Assembly (NCBI GenBank): GCA_002869845.2
Contig: NEWS02000002.1
Coordinates: forward strand, 1-64,000
Length of the DNA: 64,000 nt
Source: Nitrospira sp. CG24B
GTDB taxonomy: Bacteria > Nitrospirota > Nitrospiria > Nitrospirales > Nitrospiraceae
Direction of reading: 5' to 3'
Shown here in pieces: positions 37,725 through 49,538 of this stretch. The notes beneath the pieces are model-generated. The model had not been told where the DNA came from. It did not search any database and saw only the letters and a list, made by a program, of their open reading frames with translations. A program made the translations under genes and the position numbers. Each line of letters opens with the position of its first letter. Position 1 is the stretch's first letter.

Positions 37725-38825
37725 ATGGCTGATGCGGTAACGGAACAACTCGCGGCACTCAAGGACCAGGATTGGGCTATTCGCGGTGAAGCGGCCGGCC
37801 TACTCGGTACCTTCAAAGATCCGCGTGCAGTAGTTCCCCTGGTGGCTCTCCTTCGAGACCAGGACCGTTCTGTGCGAGAGGCGGCCATTGAAGCGTTGCG
37901 TTCGATCGGAGCCTCGGCCGTCGAGGCGGTGGGAGCCTGCCTGACTGAACCAGATCTCTCGGTTCAAGAATCAGCGTCAGCCATCTTGGCCACCATTGCG
38001 GATGAGCGGGTGCTCGCGCCGCTCATCACGGCACTACGCAGCGACGACTGGATCGTTCGGATGCACGCGGCCAACGCATTGGGTCGGGTGCAGAACGCAG
38101 ATGCGGTTGAGCCGCTCATTCCTCTACTGCACGACAAGGTGAAAGCGGTTCGTGATGAAGCGGCTACCGCTCTGGCCGCCATCGGCGATGCGGCGATTTC
38201 ATCTCTCTTGAAGGCGTTGCAGCATGGGGACTGGCTCGTTCGTCTCCATGCGGTGGAATCGTTGGGAAAGGCTCACTCGAAACGCGCGGTGGAACCTCTG
38301 TTGTCGGTGTTGTTCAACGATCATGATTCCGCGGTCCGTGAAGATGCCGTGCGAGCCCTTGGCGAGATCGGTGATCCACAGGCTGTCGAACATCTGCTGA
38401 CCGCCATGAAAGAACCGGGACTTCGCACCTTAGCCGTTGAAGCGCTTGGTCGGATCGGGGATCGGCGTGCCGTTCCGGTCCTGATCAATGTCGTCACAGG
38501 GACTAATCCCCCGAAAGTGACGAGGACCGTGGCTGGCTGCGGAGACCAATGGAATGAAGAAGTCCTTACACAAGGCGCGGCGGCTCGGGCATTGGGCGCG
38601 ATCGGCGACGAGAGGGCCATTTCGCCGCTCGTCGCATCACTAGATCGAACACATACGAGAGCCGAAGCGGCGGCATCCTTGGCCAAATTCGGGTCGAAGG
38701 TCATTCCATTCCTGCTTCCACTGCTCAATGAGCCTCGCGATGAAAATTTCCTGTTTCATGTCCGCGAAACATTGGCGTCAGCAGGATGGAGAGCCGGCAG
38801 GCGGTCACCGACTGGAACAAAATAG
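37725..38825 (+). CDS. HEAT-repeat protein 2
   Basis: Tandem HEAT repeats (DQDWAIRGEAAGLLGTFKDPRAVVPLVALLRDQDRSVREAAIEALRSIG...). Confidence 0.92.
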   Translation: MADAVTEQLAALKDQDWAIRGEAAGLLGTFKDPRAVVPLVALLRDQDRSVREAAIEALRSIGASAVEAVGACLTEPDLSVQESASAILATIADERVLAPLITALRSDDWIVRMHAANALGRVQNADAVEPLIPLLHDKVKAVRDEAATALAAIGDAAISSLLKALQHGDWLVRLHAVESLGKAHSKRAVEPLLSVLFNDHDSAVREDAVRALGEIGDPQAVEHLLTAMKEPGLRTLAVEALGRIGDRRAVPVLINVVTGTNPPKVTRTVAGCGDQWNEEVLTQGAAARALGAIGDERAISPLVASLDRTHTRAEAAASLAKFGSKVIPFLLPLLNEPRDENFLFHVRETLASAGWRAGRRSPTGTK

Positions 38826-38860
38826 TCCACAGGGTATAGGCTATTCCGCTACTGACGATT

Positions 38861-39961
38861 ATGCCAAAGGAAACGATTGAGACGCTGGTCTCCGAACTCA
38901 TCCATGAAGAGGATTGGCGCCGTATGCGAGCGACGGCCGCCTGTGTGGCGGGCGGTCCTCGTTCAGTGCAGGCGCTCATCGAGGCCCTACGGTTAGGACC
39001 CACCGAATTAAAAAAAGAAGCCGCCGCGATGCTGGCTCGTATCAAAGACCCGCAGGCTGGAGTGGCCCTAGTTGGACTGCTCGAACATGATGAGGAGGTC
39101 GTTCGGAAAGCCGGTGCGGCAGCCCTTGAACAGATGGCAGGAGTGCTCGACACGGACACGGCTCGGGTGTTAGTTGCATTGCTTCCCACAACTCAGGAAC
39201 GCGCGGCCAGACAGGTCCTGAGCCACCTGATCGGGGCGATTCCCACATCTGTCCTCCCCCTCTGCGACATGCTGAAACATCCGGATCAGGATGTGCAAAT
39301 CGCGGCAGCACTGATGCTCGATCAATTATTGGACCCCCGTTCCCTTGATGCATTCATCGATGCCATGGGCCAGCCGGCGGTTCGGGATATCGCCGTCGGC
39401 ACGTTGAAGAAACTGGGCGCCATCCGGGAACGAATCGACGAAACATTCGAGGCCTTGCGTGAAGTCGAAGGAGCCAGCGAGCGCGAAGAAGTGCGCATGA
39501 CGGCGGTCATCGACCTCCTCAGAATCGGACGACCGAGCGTAGAAATCCTGGTCGAATACCTCGAAGATGACGACTGGCTCGTGCGCGAGGCCGCAGCCGA
39601 CTTATTGGGGAAAATCGGGGATGTGCGCGCTGTCGAACCGTTGATGAAGCGGCTCGCGCAGGACAAGGATACCGGGGTCAAAGAGTTAGCCATCAAATCC
39701 CTTGGGCTAATCGGCGATGCGCGGCCGACTCGGCTCTATCTTGATGCGATCCCTATCCGTCCGCTTCGGGTGTATGCCATGGAAGCCTTAGCCAAGATCA
39801 AGGATGTAGAAATCTTGCGCCCACATAAGGAACTCTTTGACCGGCTCCGCACGGATCGCGACGGCCTCGTAGCCTATAATGCAGGTCTCATTGCCGATAA
39901 ACTTGACGCCATCATGGCCACGGAAAGCCAGCCCCCCGAAGAGGATACTGAGCATGACTGA
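38861..39961 (+). CDS. HEAT-repeat protein 3
   Basis: HEAT repeats (EDDDWLVREAAADLLGKIGDVRAVEPLMKRLAQDKDTGVKELAIKSLGLIGDARP...). Confidence 0.88.
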   Translation: MPKETIETLVSELIHEEDWRRMRATAACVAGGPRSVQALIEALRLGPTELKKEAAAMLARIKDPQAGVALVGLLEHDEEVVRKAGAAALEQMAGVLDTDTARVLVALLPTTQERAARQVLSHLIGAIPTSVLPLCDMLKHPDQDVQIAAALMLDQLLDPRSLDAFIDAMGQPAVRDIAVGTLKKLGAIRERIDETFEALREVEGASEREEVRMTAVIDLLRIGRPSVEILVEYLEDDDWLVREAAADLLGKIGDVRAVEPLMKRLAQDKDTGVKELAIKSLGLIGDARPTRLYLDAIPIRPLRVYAMEALAKIKDVEILRPHKELFDRLRTDRDGLVAYNAGLIADKLDAIMATESQPPEEDTEHD

Positions 39962-40721
39962 ACAAGGTGCATCTGATCGAATCGATCAACTCATTCACGC
40001 ATTGCACGATGAGAACGAGGCCTTGCGCGACCATGCGATCGCAAGCCTCGGCCAGACTGGTCCCGAAGCGCTTCCCCGGTTGATTGACCTCATGGCCGAT
40101 GAAGATGCGGTGATTCGAGAGGCTGCGGCCAGCGCGGTCGTTCGGATGGGGCCCTCCGTTGTCGAACCCATGATCGAAGCCCTGCAAGATGATTCCTGGG
40201 CGATCAGAGAACAGGCGGCCTCGGCGCTTGGGAAATTGCGGGACCGACGTGCCACTGAGCCTCTGGTCAAGGCGATTCATGACCGTGACGGCGCCGTCAG
40301 AACGGCAGCGGTGTGGGCGCTGGAGCGGATCGGCGATTCACAAGCGGTGCCTGGGTTGATCGATGCACTCATGGACAACACCCTACGCGAAGATGCAGCT
40401 CGGGTATTGAAGAAGATCGGCGACGTGCGGGCGGTGGAGGCCTTGATCGATGGACTCTTAGGTTCCAATTGGATGGTTCGGCGTCATGCGGCCGAGGCCC
40501 TGGGTAAGATCGGTGATCGCCGAGCCGTCACCTCGTTGATCGAGTCGCTGAAAGATGAAGACTGGTTGGTCAGACGCAACGCCGCCGAATCACTCGCGCG
40601 GCTTGGCGCAACAGAATCCGTTCAGCCCCTGCTGGCGCTGCGTCAAGACGAGAACACGATGGTCCAGGAAACTGTCGAGGCAGTGCTGGCCAGCCTCGGC
40701 TGGACACCTGAACCGCAATAA
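39954..40721 (+). CDS. HEAT-repeat protein 4
   Basis: About eight regular HEAT repeats; start codon overlaps the stop of protein 3 (ATGACTGA). ORF-track start 39879. Confidence 0.92.
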   Translation: MTEQGASDRIDQLIHALHDENEALRDHAIASLGQTGPEALPRLIDLMADEDAVIREAAASAVVRMGPSVVEPMIEALQDDSWAIREQAASALGKLRDRRATEPLVKAIHDRDGAVRTAAVWALERIGDSQAVPGLIDALMDNTLREDAARVLKKIGDVRAVEALIDGLLGSNWMVRRHAAEALGKIGDRRAVTSLIESLKDEDWLVRRNAAESLARLGATESVQPLLALRQDENTMVQETVEAVLASLGWTPEPQ

Positions 40722-40740
40722 CTCAAACCATAGAGGATAC

Positions 40741-41451
40741 ATGCCCATGGCGGATGAAGCTCCGAAGTTGATTCAGATCGCTCTGAAAGGTGGAGAGAAG
40801 AAGGATGGGTTCAACTTGGTCACCGAGCGGGTTGTGGCGGTCAACCCTGAGAGCAAACAGCTCGAGGTCGAGCTCCTGGCTTACGACGGCAAGACCGTCG
40901 TACTGGATGTGGCCGAGGAAGCGCTAGAGGACCTCAAAAAGATCAAGGTCGGAGACGGTGCCACGATCCGGGTGGTCGAAGAAGGCGGGAAGCGCGTCGC
41001 GAAGAGTTTTAAGATTCGCGCGAAAGATCCGAACGCCGCCAAAGCCGACGCCATGTTGCTCGATCTCAGAGATTCACACTGGCTGAATCGGAAGTACGCG
41101 GCAGAGGTCTTGGGGGAATTGAAAGATCCGCGCGCTATCGATCCCTTGGTGGCGGCGTTGAACGACGAAGTTGGTGACGTGCGGCAACGCGCCTATGATT
41201 CGTTGATCAAACTCGGTGGCCCCTCCGTCCCGTCGCTCATTCCACTCCTAGTATCCGAGGAGGACGAGATTCGTCAATCGGCAACCGAGATTCTTCGGAA
41301 GATCGGCAAACCAGCCGTCGAACCGCTGGCCACTGCGTTGGCCGACGCCGATGATCGGCTGACAACCCGAATCATGAAGGTGCTTGATCGAATGGGGTAC
41401 AAACCGAAAACGAAGGACACACCTAAAGCTGAGTTGCCGAGGTTGACCTAG
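40741..41451 (+). CDS. HEAT-repeat protein 5 with a distinct ~85-aa N-terminal domain
   Basis: N-terminal beta-rich segment LIQIALKGGEKKDGFNLVTERVVAVNPESKQLEVELLAYDGKTVVLDV... then HEAT repeats DSHWLNRKYAAEVLGELKDPRAIDPLVAAL.... ORF-track start 40555; ATG 40741 preferred. Confidence 0.88.
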   Translation: MPMADEAPKLIQIALKGGEKKDGFNLVTERVVAVNPESKQLEVELLAYDGKTVVLDVAEEALEDLKKIKVGDGATIRVVEEGGKRVAKSFKIRAKDPNAAKADAMLLDLRDSHWLNRKYAAEVLGELKDPRAIDPLVAALNDEVGDVRQRAYDSLIKLGGPSVPSLIPLLVSEEDEIRQSATEILRKIGKPAVEPLATALADADDRLTTRIMKVLDRMGYKPKTKDTPKAELPRLT

Positions 41452-44626: not shown

Positions 44627-45454
44627 CTATTCGTTGGGGTGCTGAACAGGCCGCGTGGCTCCATGTTCATGGCAGCCGCTCCAGGTGTGAATGCTTTGGT
44701 CACCGACCTCAACGAGGAGTCGAAGCATCTCGGTGATTTCCGTCTGTCTTTTAAGGAAATACCGAGCGGCGGACCCCTTTTTCTTGCCGACTCGCACGGT
44801 AAGAATGCGGTGATCCCGAAGCGCAAAGACATCCTCATCGGTCTCGTCGTCTCCCACATAGAGAGCCGTGCTACAGTCAAGTCTGCGCATATACTCCAGC
44901 AAGGCCGTCCCCTTGTGCGACGCCGTGGGCGGCATCACATTGACGACGGATTTTCCAAGAACAATCCGAGGCGGAGGAGAGAGCTCAGCAACGATTCGAG
45001 AAATAAGCGCCCGGGCCTCGTCTCGCTGATCGACCGTTCGATAATGGAATGAGAGCGAATAGGATTTATTCTCGACGACCACACCGCTCCGAGTCAGCTC
45101 ATCCTGAAATCGTCCGGTGACCAATCCCAGCCATCCAGAACTGGTCTCGCGGACTTGCTGGATATCCTCCTGGCGCGTGTGAGGGCCTTCTGAACCATGA
45201 TTCCCGATCAAGTGAGGCACGGCAGTCCCGACACGTGAGCGCAGATCCTCCACGGAGCGTCCCGAGATAATGGCGGTGGGAGCGCGCTTCGCGAGTTTCT
45301 CAAGCCAGAAACGGATGGGGCGCGATAGCCTCGCCGCATGATGCTCTCGAACGATTTTCGCCAAGGTCCCGTCAAAATCAAACGCATACAGAGACCGGTC
45401 CTTCAGGATGGTCTCCAGTTCAAGCTTCCCTTTTTCCGTCAAAAGATAATCCAT
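44627..45454 (-). CDS. otsB: Trehalose-6-phosphate phosphatase
   Basis: LYAFDFDGTLAKIV, AIISGRSVEDLR, LIGNHGSEG, TALLEYMRRL...ALYVGDDETDEDVF. Confidence 0.92.
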   Translation of the reverse strand: MDYLLTEKGKLELETILKDRSLYAFDFDGTLAKIVREHHAARLSRPIRFWLEKLAKRAPTAIISGRSVEDLRSRVGTAVPHLIGNHGSEGPHTRQEDIQQVRETSSGWLGLVTGRFQDELTRSGVVVENKSYSLSFHYRTVDQRDEARALISRIVAELSPPPRIVLGKSVVNVMPPTASHKGTALLEYMRRLDCSTALYVGDDETDEDVFALRDHRILTVRVGKKKGSAARYFLKRQTEITEMLRLLVEVGDQSIHTWSGCHEHGATRPVQHPNE

Positions 45455-45464
45455 GGTCCTTCCA

Positions 45465-47705
45465 TCAACTCAACAGACTCGGCCGCCGCACCTGTTGCAT
45501 GACTCGCTCCTTTTGTCTCATGCGGGCAGCATCAATGAGCATACGACCGGCCCAGCGATACACATTAAACTCCTGAATCAGTCCACGCATGCTCTGCATC
45601 CTGGCCCGCTGCTCCACCTTCGGCATCGTCAGGCCAAGGTGAAGCGCGGCCGCAAATTGATCAATATCGTAAGGATTGATGACGAGCGCCTCCGTCAGTT
45701 CCCGAGCGGCTCCGGTGAATTGACTCAGAATCAACACTCCCTGCTCGTCGTCCCGAGCACCGACGAACTCTTTTGCGACCAAATTCATACCGTCATGGAG
45801 GCTGCTGACCACACAGAGGTCTGCGCCGCGGTAACACTCGCAGACCTGAGACGCCTCGTGATGCTGAATCCGCAAGCAGATCGGTTCATACCCGTCTCGC
45901 CCAAACCGCTTGTTGATCTGCTCGGCCAAGCCATAGACCTGGCTGGTGAAATGTTGGTACTGCTCGATCATGGAACGGCTGGGAGCGGCAATCTGTATAA
46001 ATGTAAACTTCCCGATCCATTCGGGCTGGAGTTCCAGCAATCGTTCCACAGCCATGAACCGCTCCAGGATCCCCTTCGTATAATCCAGACGCTCGACTCC
46101 CAGGCCCACAAAGCGATCCGGAGGCATCCCGCACATCTCCCGCAACCTGGTTCGGCATTCAGGGACCGGCGGCTGGTCGCGCAACCATTGCAGCGGCCAC
46201 TCGATGGAGATCGGATAGGGGTTGACCGCTGTCATCTTCCCCCCATAGGACACCGTTGAACTGTTTCGATCGATGCGTGCCTCGAGTATCCGATCGACAC
46301 AGTCGATGAAATTGTTGCAGTGGACTCTGGTATGGAATCCCAGAATGCTGCTTCCGAGCAGCCCTTCCAGAATCTCCTGCCTCCAAGGACAGATCCCAAA
46401 ACTTTCCGCATTGGCCCAAGGAATGTGCCAGAACATGATGATCGTCGCGGTCGGCAATCGATCGCGGATGAGCTTTGGAACCAGGGCGAGATGGTAATCT
46501 TGAACGAGCACGACCGGATTGTCGGTTGTGGCCTCCTCGTAGACGGCTTGAGCAAAACGCTCATTGACGGCGACATAGTGTTTCCAATCGGATGAACGGA
46601 ACGTGGGCCGGACGTGGGCGATATGGCAGAGCGGCCACAATCCCTCGTTGGCAAACCCGTAATAGTATCCGGCCTCTTCTTCGGCGGTCAGCCACACACG
46701 CCGAATCTCATAGGTGGGATGCGCCGGTGGAACACTGACATGGTTCCGGCCATCCACCACCTCTCGATCCGCGGATCCGTTCCCATGCGCGACCCATGTC
46801 CCAGAGCAGGCGCGCATGACCGGCTCAAGCGCCGAGACAAGCCCGCTCGCCGGCACCTGCACGACGATGTTCTGATCTTGCCAATAGTGGGCATAGGGCT
46901 GCCGGTTGGACACAATCAGCACCTGATCGCCCGAGAACTGCTCATGAAGAATTGATTTGAGGCTGGTTGGGGACCATGAAATCTGCGTCTCATCGCGCAT
47001 GCGGCGATCAGTTTCAAGCGCCTGAACCAACGAGCGCAAGTCCTTCGCCAGTGGCTGGAGTTCCGGAGCATGTTGCTCCTGCGTGAGAGGGCTCAGCAGC
47101 CTTTCGCCCTTGACCATGGCTCGAACCCCGGCCACCCACTCTTTCCAGCTGAAATGTGCGACCAGCACCGTGACAAGCGAAATAACCGCCGTCAGCCCCG
47201 CAAATAAATAAAAAACGTAGCGTTTGGTATCGCTGCTCCGTTGTTGGATAAACCTCATGTCGTGGAGAAGGAGAAGACGTCCAAGCCGGCGCCCGTTGGA
47301 TTCGATGGACGCTGACATGATATGGAGCGGTCCACTACTGAAAGATCGCAGGGTCGAGGAGTTGGGCGCGAGGTTCAGAGTATCCCGGCAGGTGACATCC
47401 TGCGGATAAGCCTGGGTCTCATGGAGCAGGTGATTCTCGAGGTCGCAAAAACCCAGAGCGTACAGCCGCTCATCCTGAATGATACGCGTAAAATAAGCAG
47501 AGATCTTGTCTTTAGAGTTCGTGACCAGAAGCTCCGCCAGCGGTCCTTCCATGGTATTGACCATGAGTTTGGATCGCATATCGAGATCACGGACAAACCA
47601 TTTTACTTCGAGTGAATCGACAAGCGGGATGACCCCATAGGCGATCACAGCCAGCACAATCACCAGGGGAAGCACAAACCGCAGAGAGAGCGCAAGCAGC
47701 CTCAT
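45465..47705 (-). CDS. otsA: Trehalose-6-phosphate synthase with N-terminal membrane/sensor-like extension
   Basis: GT20 core: VLIVSNRQPYAHYW, VLVQDYHLALVPKLIRDRLPTATIIMFWHIPWANAE, VERLDYTKGILERFMAVERLLE, SLHDGMNLVAKEFV. Preceded by two TM helices flanking ~140 aa. ORF-track start 47810; ATG at 47705 preferred. Confidence 0.93.
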   Translation of the reverse strand: MRLLALSLRFVLPLVIVLAVIAYGVIPLVDSLEVKWFVRDLDMRSKLMVNTMEGPLAELLVTNSKDKISAYFTRIIQDERLYALGFCDLENHLLHETQAYPQDVTCRDTLNLAPNSSTLRSFSSGPLHIMSASIESNGRRLGRLLLLHDMRFIQQRSSDTKRYVFYLFAGLTAVISLVTVLVAHFSWKEWVAGVRAMVKGERLLSPLTQEQHAPELQPLAKDLRSLVQALETDRRMRDETQISWSPTSLKSILHEQFSGDQVLIVSNRQPYAHYWQDQNIVVQVPASGLVSALEPVMRACSGTWVAHGNGSADREVVDGRNHVSVPPAHPTYEIRRVWLTAEEEAGYYYGFANEGLWPLCHIAHVRPTFRSSDWKHYVAVNERFAQAVYEEATTDNPVVLVQDYHLALVPKLIRDRLPTATIIMFWHIPWANAESFGICPWRQEILEGLLGSSILGFHTRVHCNNFIDCVDRILEARIDRNSSTVSYGGKMTAVNPYPISIEWPLQWLRDQPPVPECRTRLREMCGMPPDRFVGLGVERLDYTKGILERFMAVERLLELQPEWIGKFTFIQIAAPSRSMIEQYQHFTSQVYGLAEQINKRFGRDGYEPICLRIQHHEASQVCECYRGADLCVVSSLHDGMNLVAKEFVGARDDEQGVLILSQFTGAARELTEALVINPYDIDQFAAALHLGLTMPKVEQRARMQSMRGLIQEFNVYRWAGRMLIDAARMRQKERVMQQVRRPSLLS

Positions 47706-47753: not shown

Positions 47754-49538
47754 GTGTATCAGTATGGCCTCATCGGAAACTGCCAAATTTCCGCGCTGAT
47801 CAGCGCACAAGGGTCTCTCGACTGGCTGTGCCTGCCGAGACCCGACAGCCCACCGATCTTCGGAAAAATCCTGGACCAGGAGGGTGGCCAGTTTTCCATC
47901 TCTGCGTCCGTCCCGTCCTCAGAAACAACCACAACACAGCAATACCTCCCGAACACCAACATATTAGTGACTACCGTCTCGTTACCCAACGGAGATGCGT
48001 TCCAGATTACTGATTTTTGCCCTCGCTTCCTGCAATATGGCCGCATCTATCGTCCAGCCGCCTTATTTCGGATCGTCGAACCGCTGAGCGGATCACCGTC
48101 GATTCGTGTCTGTTGCCAGCCGGTCTCTGGTTGGGAAAAAACGCCGGTTCGGTCTGTCCGCGGCAGCAGCCACCTTCGGTATGATATTCGAGGGGACTAC
48201 TTGCGATTGCTCACGAATATGCCGCTGACGTACCTCTGCGGGGAAACACCGGTCCTCCTGACGTCGAAGATGTACTTCGCACTGACGTGGGGACTCGGGA
48301 TTGAAGATGATCTAGTCAAAGTCAGCCACGAATTTCTCGATCAGACGACCAAGTACTGGCGAACCTGGGTCAAACAGTGCTCGATCCCTGTCATCTATCA
48401 GGAGGAGGTCATCCGCTCGGCCCTCGCACTGAAACTCCACTGTTATGAGGACACTGGAGCGATTCTCGCCGCGCCCACCACCAGCCTGCCCGAGGAACCA
48501 GGCGGTCCTCGAAACTGGGACTATCGCTACTGCTGGCTGCGCGATGCCCATTTCTCGCTTTCGGCGTTTCACAATCTCGGCCAGTTTGAAGAAATGGAAG
48601 GTTTCCTGAAGTTTCTCCTGAATGTCGGCTATGCCAGTGAGCAATCTCACGATCGCTTGGCGCCGGTGTATAAACTCAGTCAAGATCTGCCCCTTCCTGA
48701 AATTGAGCATGCCAACTGGCAAGGCTTTCTCGGAAGCCGACCCGTACGAAGCCATAACCAGGCAGCCGAACATATACAGAGCGACGTGTACGGAGAAATG
48801 ATACTCACGCTGGCTCCGATCTTCTTCGATAACCGGTTCATTGATTTGCGAACCAAAGATCATGAAGCGCTGGTCGCCAATTTGGTCCGCCTCTGTGAAC
48901 GAAGCATCTCTCAGCCGGATGCCGGACCATGGGAGATTCGTAATGGCTGGAAGGAACATTCGTTCACGAATCTCATGTGTTGGGCCGGACTAGACCGGGC
49001 CTACCGCATGCAGCGGGCTGGGTTTCTCCTTGATCTACCGACCAACCTAGACACGGCCCGCGCGCGAGCGGCAAATGCTTTATTGCAAGCCACCAAGGAC
49101 AAGGCCCTCCGGAATGGACCGACTGACGAGAGTTACGACGCCTCCTTAGCCCAATTGACCATTCTCGGATTTCCAGATCGAGAGGTGTGCGATACGACGA
49201 TCACGCAGATCAAGCAAGCCCTCGCCCTGCGCCAAGACGGAAAGGAAACGGGGTTTTTCTTCCGCTACCTCCGGCAGGACGATTTCGGTAAGCCTCAGTC
49301 GAGCTTTGTCATTTGCTCATTCTGGGTCGTTCAAGCGCTTGCCAAACTGGGCCGTCTCGCTGAGGCGAAGCAGATCATGAACCAGATTCTCACCGGAGCC
49401 AATGGCGTCGGGCTCTTTGCCGAGCATTTCGTGCCGGAAACTCGCCTCCAACTCGGAAACTTCCCACAAGCCTATTCCCACGTCGGCTTGATCAACGCTG
49501 CGTTCGCCGTCAGCCCGCCATGGAGCGATGTGCTGTAG
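47754..49538 (+). CDS. Glycoside hydrolase family 15 protein (glucoamylase/trehalase-like)
   Basis: YGLIGNCQISALISAQGSLDWLCLPRPDSPPIFGKILD, GGPRNWDYRYCWLRDAHFSL, GLFAEHFVPETRLQLGNFPQAYSHVGLINAA; GTG start. Confidence 0.92.
   Translation: MYQYGLIGNCQISALISAQGSLDWLCLPRPDSPPIFGKILDQEGGQFSISASVPSSETTTTQQYLPNTNILVTTVSLPNGDAFQITDFCPRFLQYGRIYRPAALFRIVEPLSGSPSIRVCCQPVSGWEKTPVRSVRGSSHLRYDIRGDYLRLLTNMPLTYLCGETPVLLTSKMYFALTWGLGIEDDLVKVSHEFLDQTTKYWRTWVKQCSIPVIYQEEVIRSALALKLHCYEDTGAILAAPTTSLPEEPGGPRNWDYRYCWLRDAHFSLSAFHNLGQFEEMEGFLKFLLNVGYASEQSHDRLAPVYKLSQDLPLPEIEHANWQGFLGSRPVRSHNQAAEHIQSDVYGEMILTLAPIFFDNRFIDLRTKDHEALVANLVRLCERSISQPDAGPWEIRNGWKEHSFTNLMCWAGLDRAYRMQRAGFLLDLPTNLDTARARAANALLQATKDKALRNGPTDESYDASLAQLTILGFPDREVCDTTITQIKQALALRQDGKETGFFFRYLRQDDFGKPQSSFVICSFWVVQALAKLGRLAEAKQIMNQILTGANGVGLFAEHFVPETRLQLGNFPQAYSHVGLINAAFAVSPPWSDVL

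Follow-up and report, generated by a model that had tools for sequence, protein, structure and literature searches.

A trehalose-6-phosphate synthase fused to a predicted transmembrane Cache-type input module in Nitrospira and its relatives

The trehalose-6-phosphate synthase (OtsA) encoded in the window, the stretch of 64,000 nucleotides from Nitrospira sp. CG24B that was analysed, was found to consist of a transmembrane helix (TM1), an extracytoplasmic domain of ~130 aa, a second transmembrane helix (TM2), a HAMP-like linker and an intact GT20 (OtsA) core. The first-pass annotation of this DNA had described such an arrangement as the layout of a chemoreceptor or histidine-kinase sensor placed on a biosynthetic glycosyltransferase, and this description was backed by the sequence, the predicted fold, conservation and phylogeny. 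It is proposed, with a probability slightly above one half (about 0.55), that the synthesis of trehalose-6-phosphate is controlled post-translationally by the membrane-bound enzyme's own sensor. The features of the locus and of the related loci are listed in Table 1.

Table 1. Features of the sensor-fused otsA locus (window positions) and of related loci
Feature	Position	Strand	Basis
Sensor-fused trehalose-6-phosphate synthase, complete CDS, 746 aa	45465..47705	(-)	ORF and Pfam; start common to relatives
TM1, residues 10-31	47613..47678	(-)	Hydropathy; helix 2-62 in AlphaFold model
Extracytoplasmic single-Cache (PAS-like) domain (predicted), residues 32-162	47220..47612	(-)	AlphaFold, Foldseek, invariant columns
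TM2, residues 163-183	47157..47219	(-)	Hydropathy; within helix 151-204 of AlphaFold model
HAMP-like/helical linker leading into GT20 core, residues 184-260	46926..47156	(-)	Alignment; weak HAMP similarity
GT20 (OtsA) catalytic core, residues 261-724	45534..46925	(-)	Pfam PF00982; active-site residue table
otsB, trehalose-6-phosphate phosphatase	44627..45454	(-)	PF02358 111.8 bits; TIGR00685 113.9 bits, above cut-off
Divergent GH15 with TREH_N domain, trehalase-like	47754..49538	(+)	PF00723 132.3 bits; PF19291 41.3 bits
MscS-GT20 fusion	L127:4184-6349(-); L202:3938-6112(+); L203:3541-5715(-); L204:3093-5267(-); L161; L207		
mscS (often DUF5752-fused), treT-like, otsA and otsB neighbourhoods, Nitrospirota	L120:3123-8752(-); L123; L136:3119-8779(+); L205		

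The frame ran on the minus strand from an ATG at 47705 to a stop at 45465 without an internal stop, and an ORF check confirmed the gene boundaries given in the first-pass annotation to the nucleotide. The open frames of several relatives (749 aa) were just 3-4 codons longer than the window protein, so that their upstream stops placed the beginning of translation at or after the ATG at 47705, directly before TM1. A late start at the GT20 core was ruled out by these stops together with the conservation of the N-terminal module and the purifying selection acting on it. A start near the core and an N-terminal module lacking conservation had been named beforehand as the two findings that would speak against the fusion; both were looked for and neither was encountered.

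The otsB gene lay 10 bp downstream of the sensor-fused otsA, the adjacency was conserved among the loci of relatives, and the two genes are probably co-transcribed. Promoter and terminator scans gave nothing above chance. The divergent GH15/TREH_N gene scored 273 bits with the TreH1 model, under the cut-off of that model, and remained a neighbour at most loci of Nitrospira and Betaproteobacteria; its probable role is trehalose turnover. Elsewhere in the window (37725-41451, plus strand), four tandem genes were noticed whose translations, by eye only, resembled HEAT-repeat (PBS-lyase type) proteins.

The two strongest hydrophobic segments of the protein began at residues 10-11 and 164 and agreed with the strings reported earlier as transmembrane helices. 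The region between them had been presumed to be periplasmic, ~140 aa long and cysteine-containing; the cysteines were confirmed, and the length was corrected to nearer 130 aa. AlphaFold, run on an alignment of 37 sequences that covered the N-terminal 262 residues, placed helices at 2-62, 65-79 and 151-204 and strands at 83-87, 93-96, 116-122, 125-136 and 139-149. The extracytoplasmic domain was therefore ordered alpha-alpha-beta5-alpha, with a pLDDT of about 91-96 over most of its length, and it showed the long helix from TM1, the five-strand PAS-like sheet and the C-terminal helix into TM2 by which a Cache domain is recognized. Foldseek ranked WalK first (E=6e-8); DctB, CitA and additional WalK entries came next, and sporulation kinase D was also among the closest folds. 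On the basis of this model, the domain between TM1 and TM2 is identified as a single Cache domain, kin of those of WalK, CitA and DctB.

Sequence comparisons pointed in the same direction. The N-terminal profile matched WalK sensor domains among PDB sequences weakly (E=0.008), and residues 4-248 of one relative (L125) matched the NCBIfam WalK model, which covers TM-Cache-TM-HAMP, with E=2e-6. The profile also matched genuine histidine kinases in Pseudomonadota, which suggests that the input module derives from the signal-transduction repertoire. Among the members, the best Pfam scores were E=4.4e-5 for sCache_3_2 and 3.8e-5 for dCache_3, and the sCache match of a full-length relative (L120) was below the cut-off. 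The Pfam search of the window protein itself returned no Cache match. A below-cut-off match of Adeno_E3B to TM2 was rejected as a chance hydrophobic similarity. GT20 was the sole significant Pfam domain of the window protein, in which no HisKA/HATPase or MCP signalling domain was found. Judged by sequence and model, the N-terminal part would work like a receptor input module, and the protein is not a member of the histidine kinases or chemoreceptors.

The Cache domain could sense a specific small molecule or a redox state (an organic acid, a sugar, the C87/C106 disulfide) instead of the osmotic state, and trehalose would then be coupled to nutrients or to the redox condition of the envelope. 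This explanation overlaps the main one, differs from it in the signal, and is considered rather unlikely. It would fit the presence of the ligand-binding domains of CitA, DctB and sporulation kinase D among the closest folds, as well as the invariance of C87 and C106 in the Nitrospiraceae/Proteobacteria sequences (26/26), where the pair is probably a periplasmic disulfide. Against it, no ligand-binding motif of a named Cache subfamily reached its cut-off, and the deep-branching Nitrospirota were without both cysteines (0/11 at either site).

The linker had been called HAMP-like in the first-pass annotation, and this was only partly backed. It aligned in register with the real HAMP domains of the same genome, and the statistics were weak: the hhalign probability was 13% for the window-type linker and 57% for the deep-branching one, and Pfam HAMP (PF00672) was detected in 3/40 N-termini with a best E of 0.029. 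P218, W244 and L249 were the invariant residues of the linker, and the similarity of the window linker to HAMP domains, as far as it can be seen in the alignment, is a weak one.

The sensor-fused module was present in 53 of the 246 genomes sampled from the phylum, 24 of which belonged to the same genus (the window's genome included) and 22 others to the same family. Mis-binned MAG contigs may account for the matches in records of Peribacteraceae, Verrucomicrobia, Pyrinomonadaceae and 'Nitrosospira', and these were left out of statements on the spread across phyla. Many of the GT20 frames of ~740-800 aa elsewhere in the phylum, considered as candidates for the same architecture, proved to be OtsA-OtsB fusions with a C-terminal DxDGT phosphatase. 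Among the 73 relatives compared were Betaproteobacteria whose extracytoplasmic domains shared about 30-40% identity, and the N-terminal module of the deep-branching Nitrospirota version was about 20% identical. Between the two deep branches, homology of the N-terminal modules extended from end to end and took in the linker (hhalign 99.4%, E=3.7e-21), and R9, R44, G142, D149, P218 and W244 were among the residues invariant over 37 diverse N-termini. Against close relatives, the extracytoplasmic domain had Nei-Gojobori dN/dS values of about 0.03-0.12, compared with 0-0.10 in the transmembrane segments and 0.03-0.07 in the GT20 core. As estimated from these alignments, strong purifying selection has preserved the module in Nitrospiraceae, Betaproteobacteria and other Nitrospirota.

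In a maximum-likelihood tree built from GT20 cores, the sensor-type proteins all fell into a single clade (100/100), which stood apart from soluble OtsA, OtsA-OtsB fusions and MscS fusions. Lacisediminimonas and Keguizhuia each carried a second copy of sensor-OtsA, located outside the GH15 cluster (L200:4319-6580(+) and L201:4245-6554(-)), which suggests paralogues tuned to different signals. A further GT20 core, 47% identical to that of the window, was located inside a 1435-aa open frame (L237, G570:C1:331281-332687).

Nested inside the sensor clade was a branch in which the Cache domain was lost and a single transmembrane segment with the conserved Trp-containing motif of the linker was kept before the core. 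The alphaproteobacterium Aminobacter (plasmid pAA02, L223:4842-6659(+)) and several sampled Pseudomonadota genomes belonged to it; its loci further included L228-L236. The membrane anchor was thus retained in all clade members examined, while the sensor was lost once in the sample; the retention supports a function of the anchor, and the enzyme of this clade can evidently work without the sensor. Both points keep alive another explanation, according to which the N-terminal part serves mainly as a tether, keeping OtsA (and OtsB) at the membrane, perhaps beside transporters or channels, or stabilising a dimer, and any sensing would be minor or vestigial. The strong conservation of the transmembrane segments and linker agrees with such a role, as does the W244/L249 motif, retained throughout the clade, the single-TM branch included. 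However, the Cache domain itself is under the strong purifying selection described above, and R44, G142 and D149 are invariant despite the low identity between the deep branches, when a plain tether needs no conserved PAS-like fold. We regard tethering alone as less likely than control by the sensor, though as an explanation to be taken seriously.

The GT20 core, cytoplasmic by sequence and model, scored 401.8 bits with PF00982 against a cut-off of 32.5. The positions that correspond to R9, G22, Y76, W85, D130, H154, R262, K267, R300, D361 and E369 of E. coli OtsA, which comprise the catalytic residues and those in contact with G6P/UDP-Glc, were all invariant in the 101 sensor-type cores. The equivalents of Y89, D143 and R318, the G6P contacts of Candida Tps1 (PMC5527307), were invariant in these cores as well. 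The site of E. coli OtsA W40 was occupied by H307 (window 46785-46787), and His was found there in 100 of the 101 sensor-type cores. The same site was Trp in 15/16 OtsA-OtsB fusions and 5/5 MscS fusions; its residue was mixed among soluble cores, and most of the single-TM branch had Tyr there. Trp at this position is a loose definer of OtsA, as Leu, His and Tyr also occur elsewhere; in the sequences compared, His marks the clade, and it may tune acceptor binding.

It is very unlikely that the core uses another acceptor and forms another product (e.g. glucosylglycerol-phosphate), or that it serves as a non-catalytic receptor output, so that the protein would not be a trehalose enzyme at all. 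Such a reading could draw on the His at the mostly Trp-occupied site and on the TIGR02400 OtsA equivalog score of 400.3 bits, below the cut-off of 564.85. A soluble paralogue from the same family also fell short of that cut-off (427.2 bits), and the cut-off is therefore without discriminating power here. In opposition to another product, the OtsA model (400 bits) outscored the glucosylglycerol-phosphate synthase model (283 bits), the equivalents of the Tps1 contacts to G6P are preserved, and the adjoining otsB and GH15/TREH_N genes argue for trehalose as the product. No GT20 other than the sensor-fused one was matched in the window's genome or in the 23 further genomes of the genus carrying the sensor-fused form, and no second, soluble OtsA was found in the window's genome, which is about 90% complete; the enzyme thus appears not to be a spare copy. 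A soluble OtsA was present as well in the genus of Nitrospira defluvii.

An independent connection between trehalose synthesis and the membrane was observed in the same class. Five genomes of genus g22, which belongs to another family (f8), encoded proteins of ~722-725 aa, in which several transmembrane helices and an MscS beta domain (PF00924, 42-46 bits against a cut-off of 20.2 in the two scored) were followed by GT20. The AlphaFold model of the N-terminal part of a g22 fusion had a low confidence (63) and matched MscS structures with E=1e-8. Because these fusions were separate from the Cache-OtsA clade in the tree of GT20 cores, a link between trehalose synthesis and membrane sensing would have arisen on at least two occasions. 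Further, a stand-alone MscS-like gene was located near otsA in 8 of the 12 deep-branching sensor-OtsA loci examined, and several of those checked were fused to DUF5752 and accompanied by a TreT-type gene. No paper on DUF5752 was found in the open-access literature. An mscS neighbour also occurred at many OtsA-OtsB fusion loci. In the loci examined from Nitrospira or Betaproteobacteria, otsA had no adjoining mscS gene. The MscS-GT20 fusion and the mscS/treT/otsA/otsB neighbourhoods link the pathway to membrane-tension sensing and strengthen the suggestion of gating from outside the cytoplasm.

The earlier suggestion, namely an extracytoplasmic signal that would gate osmolyte synthesis, is compatible with the data and partly supported; we infer the gating itself, and the derived lineage with an anchor but no Cache domain makes tethering alone a serious alternative. 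For control by the enzyme's own sensor, the following sequence of steps is proposed. The protein would dimerise via its transmembrane and linker helices, as Cache-HAMP receptors do, and the Cache domain with the transmembrane bundle would sense a ligand or the membrane/periplasmic state. The sensed cue would shift the linker helices and so change the activity or assembly of GT20. OtsB would then dephosphorylate trehalose-6-phosphate to trehalose, which the neighbouring GH15 enzyme may turn over. The most probable purpose is to bring compatible-solute synthesis quickly into line with external osmotic or envelope stress. More tentatively, and at somewhat less than even odds, this could be a one-protein osmotic or envelope response, in which the Cache sensor (in the independent lineage, the MscS module) allosterically gates the committed step of trehalose synthesis directly, without a kinase, a second messenger or transcription.

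How non-model bacteria, such as nitrite- or ammonia-oxidising Nitrospira, quickly set their compatible-solute levels is poorly known. If the proposal is true, the output of trehalose, a sugar that protects against stress, would be adjusted directly from conditions outside the membrane without gene regulation, and a biosynthetic enzyme wired to a transmembrane sensor would form a minimal sense-and-respond circuit useful as an engineering part. The two independent fusions make a direct membrane or osmotic response of trehalose synthase testable with one protein, and the single-TM branch provides a natural control for distinguishing a tether from a sensor.

Neither a Cache/HAMP-GT20 nor an MscS-GT20 fusion was described in the open-access literature searched, subscription papers and the InterPro/CAZy architecture listings being outside its scope. 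Both halves of the protein are of known kinds and their combination appears new, though domain databases may list it as unremarked entries. The window protein shares the GT20 core, the catalytic and G6P/UDP-glucose residues and the otsB neighbour with OtsA/Tps1 (E. coli OtsA 1GZ5, Candida Tps1 5HUT), whereas those solved enzymes are soluble and the window protein carries TM-Cache-TM-linker before the core and His at the W40-equivalent site. It resembles WalK-type Cache-HAMP sensor histidine kinases in its TM-Cache-TM-HAMP-like input module and differs from them in its output, which is a metabolic glycosyltransferase without a kinase, cyclase or receptor output domain. The otsB-GH15-otsA cluster of Ramlibacter tataouinensis brings the same three gene functions together, and a sensor module on OtsA is not mentioned in the available excerpt of that report (PMC3164672). 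A role in osmotic-stress sensing, like the one proposed here, is attributed to OtsA of Arthrobacter, where it rests on the trehalose-6-phosphate level and on self-assembly of the enzyme, with no sensor domain mentioned in the abstract (PMC5685639). The only described counterpart found in the open-access literature was in Thermoproteus tenax, whose msc-gt-tpsp trehalose operon is described as unique to Thermoproteales and likewise places a trehalose-phosphate synthase in a functional group with a mechanosensitive channel and another glycosyltransferase (PMC3634074). In T. tenax the channel and the enzyme are separate proteins and activation occurs by the GT (PMC3634074), whereas the window enzyme has its own sensor and that of g22 is covalently fused to MscS. 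The mscS-treT-otsA(-otsB) neighbourhoods of Nitrospirota are comparable to this operon and extend such an arrangement beyond Thermoproteales.
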